A stretch of 20,609 nt of DNA. Source: a virus. The DNA lies in IMG/VR virus record IMGVR_UViG_3300035698_002781, positions 1 to 20,609 of that record; one strand, given 5' to 3'. Shown here piece after piece: positions 3,580-20,609 of the stretch. Each line of letters begins with the position of its first letter. The first letter of the stretch is position 1. The notes beneath the pieces are model-generated. The model was given only the letters and a program-made list of their open reading frames with translations. It was not told the DNA's origin and made no database searches. The position numbers were made by a program, and so were the translations under genes.

Positions 3580-4467
3580 TTAATCACAATTACTTAACAT
3601 TGATGATTTAGAAAGTTCATCTTCTAGTGAACTCATGCAAATATGCCCGTAAGTGGTCTGTACAGTCGTGGGTGCGTCACCAAGTAACTTTGCGACCGCA
3701 TATATCGAAACACCATCCTCAAGCAAGTGTGTGGCCCGTGTGTGACGTAAAATATGAGGGGTGATCTTACCAGCTGGACGACCATCAACCTCATCCACGT
3801 GTAGTAAATCAGCAGCAACACATGTTTTCTCAAAGTCGTAAAGTAGGTCACGGTTCGATCCCAATACAAAATTCGTTTGACGTGCGTCATAAAGATCGGT
3901 GAGAAGATCATATAATTCACCCATTGGTACGGTGGGTCGTTTCTTCTTTGTCTGTTTCTCACCTTGTTTTGACAAACTAATTGTCCGGCGTGAGAAATTG
4001 ATTTGACTCCATTCAAGTTCCTCAATAGCGCGTCTACGAGAACCCGTCCCGTAACAGATTTTAATGAAGTTTTGTATGTTCTTCGGAGCATGCTGTAGTA
4101 GCACCAACAATTCATCTTTTAACAACCATACGTCTCGTGTTGGTAAATTGGTCGGTATCTCAAACATTGGTATTTCAGCCTGTACGATGCGCCCCCATTT
4201 ACGGGCATGATTAACAGCGGCACGAAGTACCGTCAATTCTCTGGCAACCGTGCTTACGGCAACCCCCTCACTTAATCTGAAATACAGGTATTCACGGCAA
4301 GTCACAATATTGATGTCGCTTACCCTTTTTGCCGTAAAATACCGGCGCAATGCCTTAATCGCATATTTCGTGCGTTCCCAAGCTGATACATTGTGTTCAC
4401 GCGCATATTGCTGAAGGATCGTTATAACATCATTTGTTCGAGTAATTGTCTGTTTTTTTCGTGACAT
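3580..4467 (-). CDS. int: Tyrosine recombinase (phage integrase)
   Basis: This 295-aa protein is a tyrosine site-specific recombinase that would integrate and excise the phage genome. An N-terminal core-binding, SAM-like helical domain covers about residues 10-95 (with VARELTVLRAAVNHARKWG). The catalytic domain follows: Box I TGSRRRAIEEL with Arg144, a beta-hairpin Lys in KKKRPTVP (about 174-176), Box II HILRH (His238, Arg241), and the nucleophile Tyr273 in TTYGH. The second His/Trp position, usually LGH, is LGD here (Asp264). The ATG at 4467 has AAGGA six bases upstream and overlaps the excisionase gene by 46 bases in another frame, so the two are co-translated. It is shorter than lambda Int (356 aa), mainly because no separate arm-type DNA-binding domain is evident. 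It is the last gene of the leftward cassette. Confidence 0.93.
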   Translation of the reverse strand: MSRKKQTITRTNDVITILQQYAREHNVSAWERTKYAIKALRRYFTAKRVSDINIVTCREYLYFRLSEGVAVSTVARELTVLRAAVNHARKWGRIVQAEIPMFEIPTNLPTRDVWLLKDELLVLLQHAPKNIQNFIKICYGTGSRRRAIEELEWSQINFSRRTISLSKQGEKQTKKKRPTVPMGELYDLLTDLYDARQTNFVLGSNRDLLYDFEKTCVAADLLHVDEVDGRPAGKITPHILRHTRATHLLEDGVSIYAVAKLLGDAPTTVQTTYGHICMSSLEDELSKSSMLSNCD

Positions 4468-4607
4468 ATTTGTTCCTTTGAATAGCGTGAGTGTTTACCA
4501 GGTGTGCGCCTGTCAGGCATAAAACGGCCCGTAGACCGCCAGCGTTCAACTGTGCGAACGGTTACACCAAATTCACTGGCGACATCTTTCGTTGTGTACC
4601 AGTTCAT
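4422..4607 (-). CDS. xis: Excisionase-like MerR-type helix-turn-helix protein
   Basis: This 61-aa basic protein has the short winged helix of MerR/excisionase families: TTKDVASEFGVTVRTVERWR (residues 5-24) forms the helix-turn-helix, and GKHSRYSKEQI the wing. A protein of this size next to an integrase is typical of recombination directionality factors, which bend DNA at att sites and switch integrase from integration to excision. A small transcriptional regulator of the cassette is the alternative. The start overlaps the stop of the 50-aa upstream gene as ATGA, and the 3' end overlaps int by 46 bases, so all three genes are coupled. The symbol is by analogy. Confidence 0.8.
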   Translation of the reverse strand: MNWYTTKDVASEFGVTVRTVERWRSTGRFMPDRRTPGKHSRYSKEQICHEKNRQLLEQMML

Positions 4608-4756
4608 TTTTTTTCGATTACTGCGCCCTCGTGTTCCCTGATGATTTTTATGGCTTGCGCAGGTGTCACGGTTCTATCGAAGACATACTCAGTGTCTTCG
4701 AACTTCTTAGTGTCGGTGTTTAAAACACTAAATGTATATGTGGTTGATTGTCTCAT
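4604..4756 (-). CDS. Small protein opening the int cassette (50 aa)
   Basis: A 50-codon frame on the - strand begins with ATG at 4756 and stops with a TGA at 4604-4606 that overlaps the excisionase start (ATGA). Reading it by hand gives MRQSTTYTFSVLNTDTKKF, then EDTEYVFDRTVTPAQAIKII, then REHEGAVIEKK. The product is a mixed-charge soluble protein with a likely beta-strand first half and a helix around residues 31-42. AAGGA lies nine bases before the ATG, a convincing ribosome binding site, and the local promoter gives a leader of about 29 bases. I do not recognise a family. Being first in the xis-int operon, it may assist or regulate recombination, or simply set translation of xis by coupling. 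RBS, stop-start overlap and promoter together make a real gene likely. Confidence 0.75.
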   Translation of the reverse strand: MRQSTTYTFSVLNTDTKKFEDTEYVFDRTVTPAQAIKIIREHEGAVIEKK

Positions 4757-4763
4757 AATAAAA

Positions 4764-4792
4764 TATCCTTATTAATCAATTCAATAAGGATA
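4764..4792 (-). promoter_or_regulatory. Inverted repeat hiding the RBS of the int cassette
   Basis: TATCCTTATT (4764-4773) and AATAAGGATA (4783-4792) form a perfect 10-bp inverted repeat with a 9-base spacer. In leftward RNA the promoter-distal arm contains the AAGGA ribosome binding site of the 50-aa gene. The predicted start point of the local promoter (about 4785) lies inside the other arm. RNA started there lacks most of that arm and leaves the site open, while RNA reading in from the virion operon can fold and hide it. It could instead be a protein-binding dyad. Confidence 0.65.
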
Positions 4793-4820
4793 CAATACCC
4801 GACATGTGTTTAAATGTCAA
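4792..4820 (-). promoter_or_regulatory. Promoter of the int cassette, near sigma70 consensus
   Basis: Read on the - strand, a perfect TTGACA -35 box (4815-4820), a 17-base spacer and TATTGT as -10 box (4792-4797) form a strong sigma70-type promoter. It is the only promoter this close to consensus that I found in the window. The expected start is the A at about 4785, giving a 29-base leader before the ATG at 4756. Confidence 0.8.
4801..4818. promoter_or_regulatory. Dyad operator inside the int promoter
   Basis: GACAT (4801-4805) and ATGTC (4814-4818) form a perfect inverted repeat separated by 8 bases. It covers most of the -35 box and most of the spacer of the int promoter, where a bound dimer would block RNA polymerase. 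The ligand could be a phage repressor encoded elsewhere, the excisionase-like protein acting on its own promoter, or the 50-aa protein. Confidence 0.55.
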
Positions 4821-4836
4821 TGGGAATTTCCAACAT

Positions 4837-7668
4837 TTATTCTTCGGTGTCTTTTTCCGTAGAAGTGGATGCCTTAACGGCGAGTAATTGGTTGAGTTCA
4901 GTGACCCAACGACCAGTGTCAACTTTCAATGGTGTGACCTCAAGAACATGTTTTGCGACCTTAGGATCAAACGCCATGCGCTCAAGAAGTTCTTCAACGC
5001 GGACCACGCGACCCTCTGGCCCCAACAATCCATTTCTCAACTGTCTGATAATTTTGTTATAACCGGCACCACGTAGCATGCCGAATTTGATTTTTAATGC
5101 ACCCTCGATCACAACCATGGTCTGTTTCTCACGCATGGTCATCTTGTCCATTGTATCTGAACCAGAGGTTGCCCTGCGTCCCAAATTACCCTGTTTAGAC
5201 ATGATTTTATGAATTCGATTTAATGTATTCATTTCGTCAGGATCAAAGATTTTACTTAATGCTTCACGATTATCATCAAGAACACGAGTAAGCTTGGAAT
5301 AAACAACAGGGCGACCACTTGTGTCAGTGTCAGGAATGTCCGTATCAGATGCTGCGGTACCTTTGATCTTTTTCTGTAACCAACGCACTGTAGCCTCTTT
5401 AAAACCATCCATTGCCTCTTTATCGCTACCGATTTGAGCAATAACATCATCGATCTGTTTAACGCGATCCTTTGCATCCATGATGTCACCAACGTATTTA
5501 TCGGAATCGTACTTTGATATTTTACCTAATGGTCCAGATTGTAATTTGCGTTCCTGTTTCTTGAGGTCGCCTTCAGCTTTTCTGATGTTGGTTTTCAACT
5601 CTTTCAGCTGCGTCAACGATTGGTCCGTTATGTCGTCGTTCTTCATCATTGACGATACAATACCTTCGTATTTCGATTTAAGGTCATCTGGTAGAATATC
5701 AGCATTATCTGCAATAAAGTTACGAATAACCTTCGGATTAAGGCTCGACTTACGGGCCAATGTCGCGTCAAAATACAATTCAATAGCATCATTAGCTGAT
5801 TGTGTATCGGGTGCTTCATCTATGATTCTTTTCAGGTCATCTGCTGCGGATGATGTCTTGTTTAAGAAAAATGATGCCATGTTTTCAGCATCGGATGACC
5901 CGGTGCCATCACCGCGCTGGACATTATCACGATATTTCTTACCATATCCTTCGGCAAAGAAAGGCGCATAATTTTCTTTATAGTTGGTGTTCGCTTCCTT
6001 GAACTTAGGATCATTTTCAATGGTTTCATTAATACGTTTTCTGATTTTCTTGAGCGTATCGGCCTTTGAAAATTGACCAGCAGTTTGAGCAGATTCAATT
6101 TCCTTACTCAAGTTACGGCGCATTTTGAGAACTTCATCTGCTGGTATCTTACCGGCTGTTGATCCTGGTCCTTCTAGTGTGCCTTTTTGCGGGATGAAAC
6201 TTTTAATACCTTCAATAATATAAGTAGGTACACGTGCTTCTGGTGTTTCCAGCTTAGAAACATTTTTATCAATATCAGTAATTGTTCGAAGGAGACTATC
6301 GGCATCAACAAATGCACCTTCAGCTGAGTCCTCAAACTTCTGATTTTTAACTGTTGTTTTTTCACTCAGTGTCGCATCTAATTGTTCATTCAATTGTGCA
6401 GACGCACGGCCCTCAGCGCCCCTACGTGCTTCAACACCGGCTGTAATACCTTCTTTTTCACGCTGAATGTCGCGCAGTGATTGCTCAGCTTCGATCTCAC
6501 CTTTTTTCAGATCATCAATACCAGCCTGGGATGTCGATAATTCTTTATCGATAATATCAGCTGACTTTTTCTGAGGTGCCGTTACGTCTGCCTCAGGGTC
6601 CCTAAATTCGTTTAATTTAGATGACACACCTGTGCGAATTTGTTGATCACGCTCCATGAATGGTTGCGGATTTATACCGCGTTGTTTTACCTCAAGCATG
6701 GACAACCCGACATCACCTGAAGCCGGTCCAATCGTGGGGTCAGCAATACCAAGATTATCAGCGTCCTGGATACTCTCGTCAATATTTTTAATTGCCTGAT
6801 TTTTATCTGTTACAATACCACGGTTGAAATTACCATCTTTATCATAGGAACCTTTTATAACATCGCTTGTGTCACTCAGAGCATCACGTCTCACGTATGA
6901 TCCGTCAGGTAATTGAACCTCGCCCCGCCCGTACATTCCACGCCCCATGCCCTCAGCTAATTTTGCAGTTGATGTACCGGTTATACCACCAAATAAGGTC
7001 ATCAATAATGTTGCAATCGGACCTTGACCTGTTTCCTGTGCGGCGGTTAAACCAGTACCAGCAGCAATGCCACCAGCAACATCTGTTGCAAGCTGAGATG
7101 TTGCGCGACCTTTATATGCTCGTGCGGCACTATCTAGTAATTCAGGTAAACGTTGCAAACCTGTTTTGATACCATGGGCCACCTCAGGTATGTGCCGCGC
7201 TCTTGCGGCTAAACCAGCGCCACCAATTGCGGCTTCACCACCAAGATCAAGTGCATTACCGAGTAATCGTTGACCACGTGAATATTGATCTCGATCTACA
7301 ACTTCTTTGAAAACGTTGTCTTTAAACCACTGACTACCGCCAGTAGGGTTTTCATTAATTGGTGTATATGGTTGATCACCATCACCTTGTAAAAATTGAA
7401 CACCCGCGCCAACCGCATCCATCAACAGATTACTTATGTCAACTGGTGCACCAAGAATATTTGACGGTATGTTAGCCGATAATGATTGACGTGCAACATC
7501 CCAGTTTGAGGGATGTTGATCAACAGGTGGCGCAACTTGTTGCTGTTGAACGGGTGTATTTATTTCAGGTGTGATCGGCCCACTAGAGAGTGCTTTCGAA
7601 ATCTCATCTTGTGAGAAATCGTCTGGAAATTCATGAACTGAACCTTTGAATTCTATTCTTTGTGGCAT
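4837..7668 (-). CDS. Large internal virion (ejection) protein, gp16-position
   Basis: This 943-aa protein ends the virion operon, the place of T7 gp16. It is inferred to be packaged inside the capsid and to leave with the DNA, helping to form the channel through the host envelope. The N-terminus IEFKGSVHEFPDDFSQDEI resembles a short segment found at the start of many phage structural proteins. Gly/Ala-rich hydrophobic stretches at about 143-156 and 198-235 could contact membranes. Charged, probably coiled-coil segments lie at about 370-430 and 690-740. No lytic transglycosylase motif was seen, unlike T7 gp16; the lytic domain is in the neighbouring gene. The ATG at 7668 overlaps that gene's stop as TAATG. 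No terminator separates its stop from the int promoter 17 bases on. The role rests on gene order and composition. Confidence 0.75.
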   Translation of the reverse strand: MPQRIEFKGSVHEFPDDFSQDEISKALSSGPITPEINTPVQQQQVAPPVDQHPSNWDVARQSLSANIPSNILGAPVDISNLLMDAVGAGVQFLQGDGDQPYTPINENPTGGSQWFKDNVFKEVVDRDQYSRGQRLLGNALDLGGEAAIGGAGLAARARHIPEVAHGIKTGLQRLPELLDSAARAYKGRATSQLATDVAGGIAAGTGLTAAQETGQGPIATLLMTLFGGITGTSTAKLAEGMGRGMYGRGEVQLPDGSYVRRDALSDTSDVIKGSYDKDGNFNRGIVTDKNQAIKNIDESIQDADNLGIADPTIGPASGDVGLSMLEVKQRGINPQPFMERDQQIRTGVSSKLNEFRDPEADVTAPQKKSADIIDKELSTSQAGIDDLKKGEIEAEQSLRDIQREKEGITAGVEARRGAEGRASAQLNEQLDATLSEKTTVKNQKFEDSAEGAFVDADSLLRTITDIDKNVSKLETPEARVPTYIIEGIKSFIPQKGTLEGPGSTAGKIPADEVLKMRRNLSKEIESAQTAGQFSKADTLKKIRKRINETIENDPKFKEANTNYKENYAPFFAEGYGKKYRDNVQRGDGTGSSDAENMASFFLNKTSSAADDLKRIIDEAPDTQSANDAIELYFDATLARKSSLNPKVIRNFIADNADILPDDLKSKYEGIVSSMMKNDDITDQSLTQLKELKTNIRKAEGDLKKQERKLQSGPLGKISKYDSDKYVGDIMDAKDRVKQIDDVIAQIGSDKEAMDGFKEATVRWLQKKIKGTAASDTDIPDTDTSGRPVVYSKLTRVLDDNREALSKIFDPDEMNTLNRIHKIMSKQGNLGRRATSGSDTMDKMTMREKQTMVVIEGALKIKFGMLRGAGYNKIIRQLRNGLLGPEGRVVRVEELLERMAFDPKVAKHVLEVTPLKVDTGRWVTELNQLLAVKASTSTEKDTEE

Positions 7669-14257: not shown

Positions 14258-14288
14258 AAAAAGGTGGTGCGGCGAACACCACCTTTTT
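14258..14288. terminator. Bidirectional intrinsic terminator after the decoration gene
   Basis: A perfect 12-bp stem pairs AAAAAGGTGGTG (14258-14269) with CACCACCTTTTT (14277-14288) around a 7-base loop. On the - strand it is followed by T residues, so it ends leftward transcripts after the capsid and decoration genes. The A/T ends also make it work in reverse. As it is inside the virion operon, it probably lowers, rather than stops, expression of the tail genes. Confidence 0.9.
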
Positions 14289-17346: not shown

Positions 17347-17362
17347 AACGTTTAACAACGTT
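17347..17362. repeat. Two AACGTT palindromes, 10 bp apart
   Basis: AACGTT occurs at 17347-17352 and 17357-17362, one helical turn apart, between the promoter-like site and the scaffold RBS. Spacing by one turn would place two protein contacts on the same face of the DNA. It could be an operator, or chance in AT-rich DNA. Confidence 0.35.
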
Positions 17363-17373
17363 TGGTTGTACTT

Positions 17374-17402
17374 AGTGTGTCAAACCCCGACAATCAAGTC
17401 AA
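17374..17402 (-). promoter_or_regulatory. Promoter-like site before the scaffold gene
   Basis: On the - strand, TTGACT (17397-17402), a 17-base spacer and CACACT (17374-17379) match a sigma70-type promoter in the -35 box. The -10 box keeps only the second, fourth and last positions. It lies in the longest non-coding gap of the virion operon (17321-17425, 105 bases) and could boost scaffold and capsid transcription. Confidence 0.45.
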
Positions 17403-19516: not shown

Positions 19517-20609
19517 TACCAACCCTCAGACTGCATTTCGCTTTGACGTTTACGTTGCTCACTATCGTGTATCACCCACCCCATTGTACCAGTTTTCGGA
19601 ATATTATTTTTAGGCGGTCTGTAACTGGATGCAGCAAGTTCCTTACTTAATCCTAAACCAATCCATGCCAACCAGTCAACGAAGTCATCGTTAGCACCAT
19701 TCGGAAATTTCATTAACTGATTTTTCGCATCTTGGTACCAAGGTGCGAACGCAGGAAAAAACACTTTTTTCATTGACATACGGCCCTGAATTGATCGCGC
19801 ACGTGACATTTTATCTTTTGTCGGTGTAACGGGATCAAGCATTGTGTATGTCTGCGTTTCAACCATTCTCTTACGTAAAAACGGACCAAATGATTTCGAT
19901 ATTAATTCACTCTCCATCCACCACACAGACGGTGTATTACGCCGCATACTTGCTATCAATTCCTCAACTGTTCTATCAGTTTCCATCTGTTCCCAAACTA
20001 AATCGGGTAGGATATAAATATCATCATTTTCATCAATACCAACACAACCAACAACGGTTTTATCTCGTCGTTGTTTCTGGCTGACAGCATGATCTGACGC
20101 ACCATATTTACGTAAATTGGTTGGTAATTCATTCAGTTGATACTCCATAATCATATCTGTTGTGAAGTAAATACCGTTATCCGGCGTTGGTGAACCCATG
20201 ACAAGCGCAGAAAATGACAATGGATCACCGCGTTTCCATTGCGCGAAAAACTCAAGTGATTTTTCTGTTGACCATAATGCTGTACATGGTGCTTCACCAA
20301 ATTGTTCAATAATCTTCGGGTCCTTGGGTACACTCATTTCCAGGCCCAAAGCGGTTGCCAATTTCTCATCACGGATGACACCTGGGATATTCATAAATTC
20401 CCAATCATCTGATATACCCCTGAAACGTTTATCCCTCTCAGGGTGAGTTGGATCACACAATCGACCGATCAAATCATCTTCGTTCCACCTCGTATTATGG
20501 CTAACTAAACCGTTTGCAATGAAATTTTTAGTAATTGCAACTTCAATGTCAAACACATCCTCAAAACCATCTTCTATAATCTCAACAACCTCATCATCCA
20601 CAATCTTCA
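19516..20609 (-). CDS. terL: Terminase large subunit, C-terminal part, with intein end (5'-partial)
   Basis: The frame is open to the window edge. The first visible residues are the end of an intein, then the C-extein of about 325 aa starts TRWNEDDLIGRL. That matches the TRW-ExDL-GR block near the end of the TerL ATPase domain. The rest is the RNase H-like nuclease that cuts packaged concatemers: D170 in GASDHAVSQ, an acidic position in WWMESEL (E230/E232), and D305/D306/D309 in NDDFVDWLAW (numbered from the GTG at 20601). Walker A and B lie outside the window. With the portal downstream it powers DNA packaging. Its stop overlaps the portal start, so the two are coupled. Activity requires removal of the intein. 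Confidence 0.93.
   Translation of the reverse strand, partial: KIVDDEVVEIIEDGFEDVFDIEVAITKNFIANGLVSHNTRWNEDDLIGRLCDPTHPERDKRFRGISDDWEFMNIPGVIRDEKLATALGLEMSVPKDPKIIEQFGEAPCTALWSTEKSLEFFAQWKRGDPLSFSALVMGSPTPDNGIYFTTDMIMEYQLNELPTNLRKYGASDHAVSQKQRRDKTVVGCVGIDENDDIYILPDLVWEQMETDRTVEELIASMRRNTPSVWWMESELISKSFGPFLRKRMVETQTYTMLDPVTPTKDKMSRARSIQGRMSMKKVFFPAFAPWYQDAKNQLMKFPNGANDDFVDWLAWIGLGLSKELAASSYRPPKNNIPKTGTMGWVIHDSEQRKRQSEMQSEGW
20494..20609 (-). mobile_element. Intein, C-terminal splicing domain (partial)
   Basis: Immediately before the TerL block TRWNEDDL, the frame reads VFDIEVAITKNFIANGLVSHN. Its parts correspond to intein block F (VFDIEV) and block G (NFIANGLVSHN), with penultimate His and terminal Asn at 20494-20499 and Thr as the +1 extein residue (20491-20493). 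All residues needed for the second half of protein splicing are present. The N-terminal splicing blocks, and any homing endonuclease, lie beyond the window. Intein insertion at conserved ATPase sites of phage terminases is known. Confidence 0.92.

Follow-up and report, generated by a model that had tools for sequence, protein, structure and literature searches.

A conserved hairpin at the promoter of a phage integration cassette as a probable insulator of its first gene against virion-operon readthrough

When the virion genes of a phage run into its integration genes on the same strand, what keeps the latter from being expressed by RNA that enters from upstream? The question is raised by the window, by which we mean the whole stretch of DNA analysed, here a 20,609-base virus record from IMG/VR. 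Its minus strand carries a virion operon, followed by a three-gene cassette; a replication block on the plus strand, with a DNA polymerase gene at its end, runs convergently towards this cassette. The virion operon comprises a terminase fragment, portal, scaffold, capsid and further ORFs up to a 943-aa ORF ending at 4837; the names scaffold, portal and capsid were assigned from gene order and relatives, without a family match. At the end of the record, a C-terminal intein splicing motif (PF14890, E 2e-4; 20490-20607, minus strand) lies in frame and upstream of the apparent C-terminal part of the terminase, which suggests a terminase gene with an intein, cut by the record end. The genes at the junction are as follows.

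4837-7668, minus strand: last virion-operon ORF, 943 aa, presumed source of readthrough; stop codon at 4839-4837
4604-4756, minus strand: first cassette gene, a 50-aa ORF with no known relatives and with a stop that overlaps the start of the HTH gene
4422-4607, minus strand: 61-aa MerR/excisionase-like helix-turn-helix (HTH) protein; own Shine-Dalgarno (SD) sequence absent
3580-4467, minus strand: tyrosine integrase (int), starting within the HTH gene; own SD, predicted accessible

No tRNA marking an attP was found in the window. In a distant relative (L198), a tRNA-Glu gene (ARAGORN) and an apparent tRNA-Tyr (by eye), at about 3723-3914, separate the virion operon from the HTH/int cassette.

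The first-pass annotation of this sequence had proposed that a hairpin in the cassette leader hides the first SD in late readthrough RNA, and that a promoter with its start inside the other arm yields RNA unable to form the stem. The elements that it described are present in the sequence:

4821-4835, minus strand: conserved block TGTTGGNNNTNCCCA directly upstream of the -35 element, candidate protein site
4815-4820, minus strand: -35 hexamer TTGACA of the cassette promoter, invariant in 8 of 8 members
4798-4805, minus strand: ATGTCGGG motif in the promoter spacer, candidate operator, whose orientation flips in relatives
4792-4797, minus strand: -10 hexamer TATTGT, following a 17-bp spacer and ending with the first base of the stem
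4785, minus strand: predicted transcription start (from promoter geometry), 7th base after the -10 element, inside the 5' arm
4783-4792, minus strand: hairpin 5' arm TATCCTTATT, reaching 4793-4781 with G-U pairs
4764-4773, minus strand: hairpin 3' arm AATAAGGATA, whose extension reaches 4775-4763
4766-4771, minus strand: Shine-Dalgarno TAAGGA of the first cassette gene, within the 3' arm, 9 nt upstream of the ATG

The two arms form a perfect 10-bp inverted repeat (minus strand 4792-4783 and 4773-4764, 9-nt gap) directly after the promoter. As RNA, the stem comprises 13 pairs including two G-U, with -15.1 kcal/mol for the 61 nt from 4800 to 4740 (z -3.0; 2 of 200 shuffles were equally good). 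A stem of at least 10 bp was obtained in 0.2% of dinucleotide-shuffled leaders, and perfect stems of at least 10 bp occur at three places in the whole window, against 0-2 in each of 20 window shuffles. The other perfect inverted repeats of at least 10 bp, at 14258-14288 and 696-725, lie in or beside short intergenic gaps. The promoter (minus strand 4820-4792) is a 10/12 match; since 11 promoter-like sites of such quality were found and 11.6 expected, the match alone is not rare, and the promoter is credible because it is conserved in relatives. As had been claimed, no terminator is visible after the virion stop: the scan of the minus strand from 4837 to 4757 returned no terminator-like site. 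The Rfam search gave only a chance-level DnaX match (E 0.68).

Seven further uncultured phages (L055, L056 (=L025), L057 (=L026), L058, L059, L074 and L109) were found to carry the same promoter block and an HTH gene adjoining the virion operon. They were located via integrase, HTH and motif searches, and relatives were also found with capsid, DNA polymerase and integrase-alignment searches. Neither a viral-contig search with the integrase as single protein nor blastn against phage records gave a match, none of the other promoter-pattern matches encodes the window proteins tested, and a scan of genome contigs pointed to no host, its only matches being distant integrases at 22-49% identity. The five integrases that were aligned share 61-68% identity with that of the window, and the promoter block TGTTGGNNNTNCCCATTGACA is common to the relatives, with one mismatch in L109. 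A related integrase frame with one internal stop codon (TAA) was seen in L060 at 6001-6849.

The hairpin is kept, directly downstream of the -10 hexamer, in five of the seven relatives, with covarying and G-U pairs. The arms are ATCCTTATT/AATAAGGAT in the window, ATCCTTATA/TATAAGGAT in L074 and L059, ATATCCTT/AAGGATAT in L056, and TTCTTGT/ACAAGGA, with one G-U, in L055; L057 has a 10-pair stem around TTCTTATAAG/CTTATGAGGG with G-U pairs, nested in ATGTCGGGGTTT/AAACCCCGACAT. All six of these hairpin members have the SD in the 3' arm and the expected start in the 5' arm; the first gene varies among members and the device is retained. An A-U pair is replaced by G-C in L055, and U-A by A-U in L074, L059 and L057 (covariation was taken from folds and arm-swap energies; the MAFFT alignment misplaces the L055 3' arm). 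The compensatory changes that the first-pass annotation had suggested looking for were thus found together with pairing in five of the seven. In L058, which is without this stem, the SD segment GGAATATCC pairs with GGATATTCC, located upstream of the -35 element and found only in readthrough RNA. The same phage has a strong terminator before the promoter (A-tract/stem/U9, -20.1 kcal/mol), identified from sequence and fold and absent from the plus-strand list of the pattern scan. The pairing is lost in L109, where the promoter is present with neither terminator nor SD-sequestering stem and the SD opening cost is 1.3 kcal/mol.

Could the stem itself be a weak intrinsic terminator of the virion operon, sparing RNA started within it? 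The stem of the window is followed by UUUUAUUAU, as a terminator might be; but the perfect 10-bp repeat has just two G-C pairs, the scan did not score the stem as a terminator, and there is no long U-run 3' of the stem in L074, L059, L056, L055 or L057. For lack of a G+C-rich stem with a conserved U-run this reading was rejected, and we consider it highly improbable.

The dyad could also act as DNA. It would then be an operator centred near +7, occupied by a dimeric repressor or by the HTH protein so that the promoter is shut off, and the hairpin in RNA would be a by-product. Operators are typically positioned over the start site, three members have a long perfect DNA dyad, and the dyad centre is at a fairly constant distance from the -10 hexamer (~12.5-14 bp) in the six hairpin members. 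However, arm length and gap are variable and symmetric half-sites are not found in all members: those of L055 and L057 are imperfect as DNA and complete as RNA via G-U pairs, and L058 and L109 have none. The G-U pairs of L055 and L057 stand at positions where the SD requires G, so that RNA pairing fits better than a DNA dyad, and the distant partner that L058 substitutes again pairs the SD. The stem dyad occurs only once per genome, for which reason a multi-copy operator was rejected, and both the ATGTCGGGG motif (35 exact 9-mer matches vs 3 for a control) and the block before the -35 element look more like protein sites. An operator at the stem is therefore regarded as unlikely.

The motifs just mentioned deserve a description of their own. 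ATGTCGGG(G) is found in the cassette promoter spacer, in either orientation, in 8 of 8 members, and the ATGTCGGGG motif is present in the cassette promoter, in the apparent capsid-operon promoter, and repeatedly genome-wide. For the 9-mer ACCCCGACA the control was the reversed form, and the matches were counted in eight records; the 9-mer also lies in the spacer of the apparent capsid-operon promoter, in the window (17392-17384) and in relatives.

17379-17402, minus strand: candidate virion-operon promoter region TTGACT...TGTCGGGGTTTGA, with a spacer motif common with the cassette promoter

The TGTCGGGGT motif (window 17384-17392, minus strand, and L208-L227 of relatives) occurs repeatedly in promoters and intergenic regions and has the look of an operator for a regulator that acts throughout the phage. 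In the leader 3' of the candidate capsid-operon promoter there is an inverted repeat AACGTTGTTAAACGTT (17347-17362, minus strand), with GCGTTGTGAAACGC there in relatives. A distant relative (L200) has a perfect 26-bp palindrome, TGTCAAATGGAAATTTCCATTTGACA, at 3718-3743 over the -35 element of its HTH-gene promoter; the TGTTGGNNNTNCCCATTGACA block in the window group resembles a degenerate version of this palindrome. The motif common to the cassette and capsid-operon promoters makes a shared DNA-binding regulator likely, so that their timing is perhaps not independent; it suggests shared DNA-level control of the cassette and virion promoters. This bears on the earlier proposal that recombination genes are kept off during late expression: the predicted occlusion of the first-gene SD stands, whereas separate timing was an assumption, both promoters having a ATGTCGGGG-type motif.

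The effect of the pairing on the SD was estimated by folding long RNA and promoter-started RNA, as had also been suggested for the window. The predicted costs of opening the SD (kcal/mol, long/promoter-started RNA) are 9.8/2.9 in the window, 5.6/0.5 in L074, 10.9/2.5 in L059, 7.5/2.1 in L056, 5.2/1.1 in L055, 7.3/3.5 in L057 and 8.0/4.0 in L058. The cost is higher in the long RNA in 9 of 9 members, although the gap is as small as 0.8 in L109 and 1.8 in L198, a distant relative. The difference holds with 60-500 nt of upstream RNA, and in most members the SD is predicted to be accessible whenever RNA starts at the 5th base after the -10 element or later, in L057 at the 6th or later. The mean over nine members is 6.9, against 3.1 +/- 0.5 with the upstream part of the leader shuffled. 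In the arm-swap test each member's own arms pair better, equally good permutations numbering 5 of 720 for the six hairpin members and 2 of 40320 for all eight; the shuffle and arm-swap figures are guides and not exact probabilities, as the eight close members share ancestry.

These results bear on the view that the stem is ordinary leader structure, the start region being kept for the promoter and the SD for translation, with a complementarity that is coincidental or inherited. UCCUUA and UAAGGA are complementary by the nature of the SD, structured SDs are found in many phage genes, and some members are weak against shuffles: single p values range from 0/400 (window and L059) to 0.69 (L109), and L074, L055 and L057 are individually unexceptional (p 0.03, 0.08 and 0.18). 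Among 115 other phage ORFs, an opening cost of at least 5.2 was found in 28 and of at least 9.8 in 3, which puts the window in the top few percent and makes the weaker members not unusual singly. Against this view stand the arm-swap test, covariation at inner pairs that lie beyond the SD core, the perfect 11-bp stem of L059 (10.9 kcal/mol) and the alternative SD partner in L058, and we judge it quite improbable.

Which genes would a sequestering hairpin control? It would occlude the SD of the first gene only, which is a 50-aa ORF or the excisionase-like HTH gene; the latter comes directly first in L057, L058, L059, L074 and L109. In the window, translation of the HTH gene is probably coupled to that of the 50-aa ORF, since the HTH gene lacks an SD and its start overlaps the ORF's stop. 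The integrase gene has an SD of its own with a predicted opening cost of 0.4-3.7 kcal/mol among members (0.5 in the window); because this SD is predicted to be accessible, silence of int in readthrough RNA is unproven. The target is narrower than had been proposed. L074 and L109 keep the promoter and the HTH gene, no match to int was found anywhere in either record (both may be incomplete), and the full stem is kept in L074. In these two phages the HTH gene with its promoter (L074 253-393, minus strand; L109 1299-1490, plus strand) has a C-terminus that diverges at the usual int overlap, and the ends look, from the sequence, as if int had been deleted. What is targeted throughout is the HTH gene or the ORF preceding it, and the claim is best limited to the first gene of the cassette.

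We therefore favor, with fair but not strong confidence, the reading that the hairpin is a readthrough insulator for the first cassette gene. Sequence and computation provide the repeat, the match to a promoter, the position of the SD, the covariation and the difference in folding; readthrough, the start site, the translational effect, the coupling and the purpose we infer. RNA entering from the co-directional virion operon would hold both arms, so that the stem could fold, hide the first-gene SD and leave that gene untranslated, and in the window the HTH gene with it, by coupling. RNA from the sigma70-type cassette promoter would start within the 5' arm, lose most of that arm and expose the SD. 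Expression of the excisionase-like HTH protein would thereby be tied to its own promoter, and ill-timed HTH or recombination functions would be avoided while virion genes are expressed. A more specific version is tentative: the promoter-in-stem insulator may be specific to the excisionase-like HTH gene and selected against virion-operon readthrough; since the int SD is open, readthrough RNA might make integrase without HTH protein, and the insulator might have been rebuilt with different partner arms, plus a terminator in one lineage. We regard the hairpin as a real and conserved feature at the RNA level, known in kind but new in its location, and the mechanism as likely.

In phage T4, the genes e, soc, 49 and I-TevI have a promoter placed inside or next to the 5' strand of a stem that sequesters the SD, and the long upstream-started RNA is occluded whereas the promoter-started RNA is translated (PMC3014915). 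The present device is similar in that the SD of the long transcript is paired in a helix (predicted folds), RNA from its own promoter is without the 5' strand of the helix (predicted start), and the pairing is conserved among related phages. The likeness to T4 gene e that had been drawn from the window thus holds at the level of predicted folds and conserved pairing, but its extension to a silent int is not supported. In T4, readthrough from early and middle transcription is silenced and late promoters are used, whereas here the readthrough would come from the virion operon and the promoter is sigma70-type (TTGACA-17-TATTGT, without the T4-type late promoter TATAAATA). The gene concerned also differs, belonging to an excisionase-like HTH/int cassette, and no homology is claimed; the device works like that of T4 but is not a T4-type member.

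Lambda int is subject to promoter-dependent control by sib (cited in PMC5300877). There too, a promoter-dependent RNA structure decides whether RNA of an integration gene is productive. The sib element lies downstream of int and acts via RNA processing and decay, whereas the element described here is upstream and predicted to block initiation. In IS10/Tn10 and IS50, RNA that enters from outside adopts a fold in which the initiation site of the recombinase is hidden, and the element's own promoter starts within an arm. There a transposon is guarded against flanking host promoters and the protected gene is the recombinase, whereas here a phage cassette would be guarded against the phage's own operon and the first gene is not a recombinase. 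Our literature search, with most subscription journals outside its coverage, retrieved no report of such a device on a phage integration cassette. The device can be searched for in other phages and easily tested with reporters. The logic is known from T4, and what is new is its proposed application to an integration cassette that readthrough from the virion operon would enter; if the proposal is true, the SD-hiding trick of T4 and IS10 also guards phage integration genes that are reached by virion genes without a terminator, and is one answer to how integration functions are separated from virion expression in genes packed end to end.
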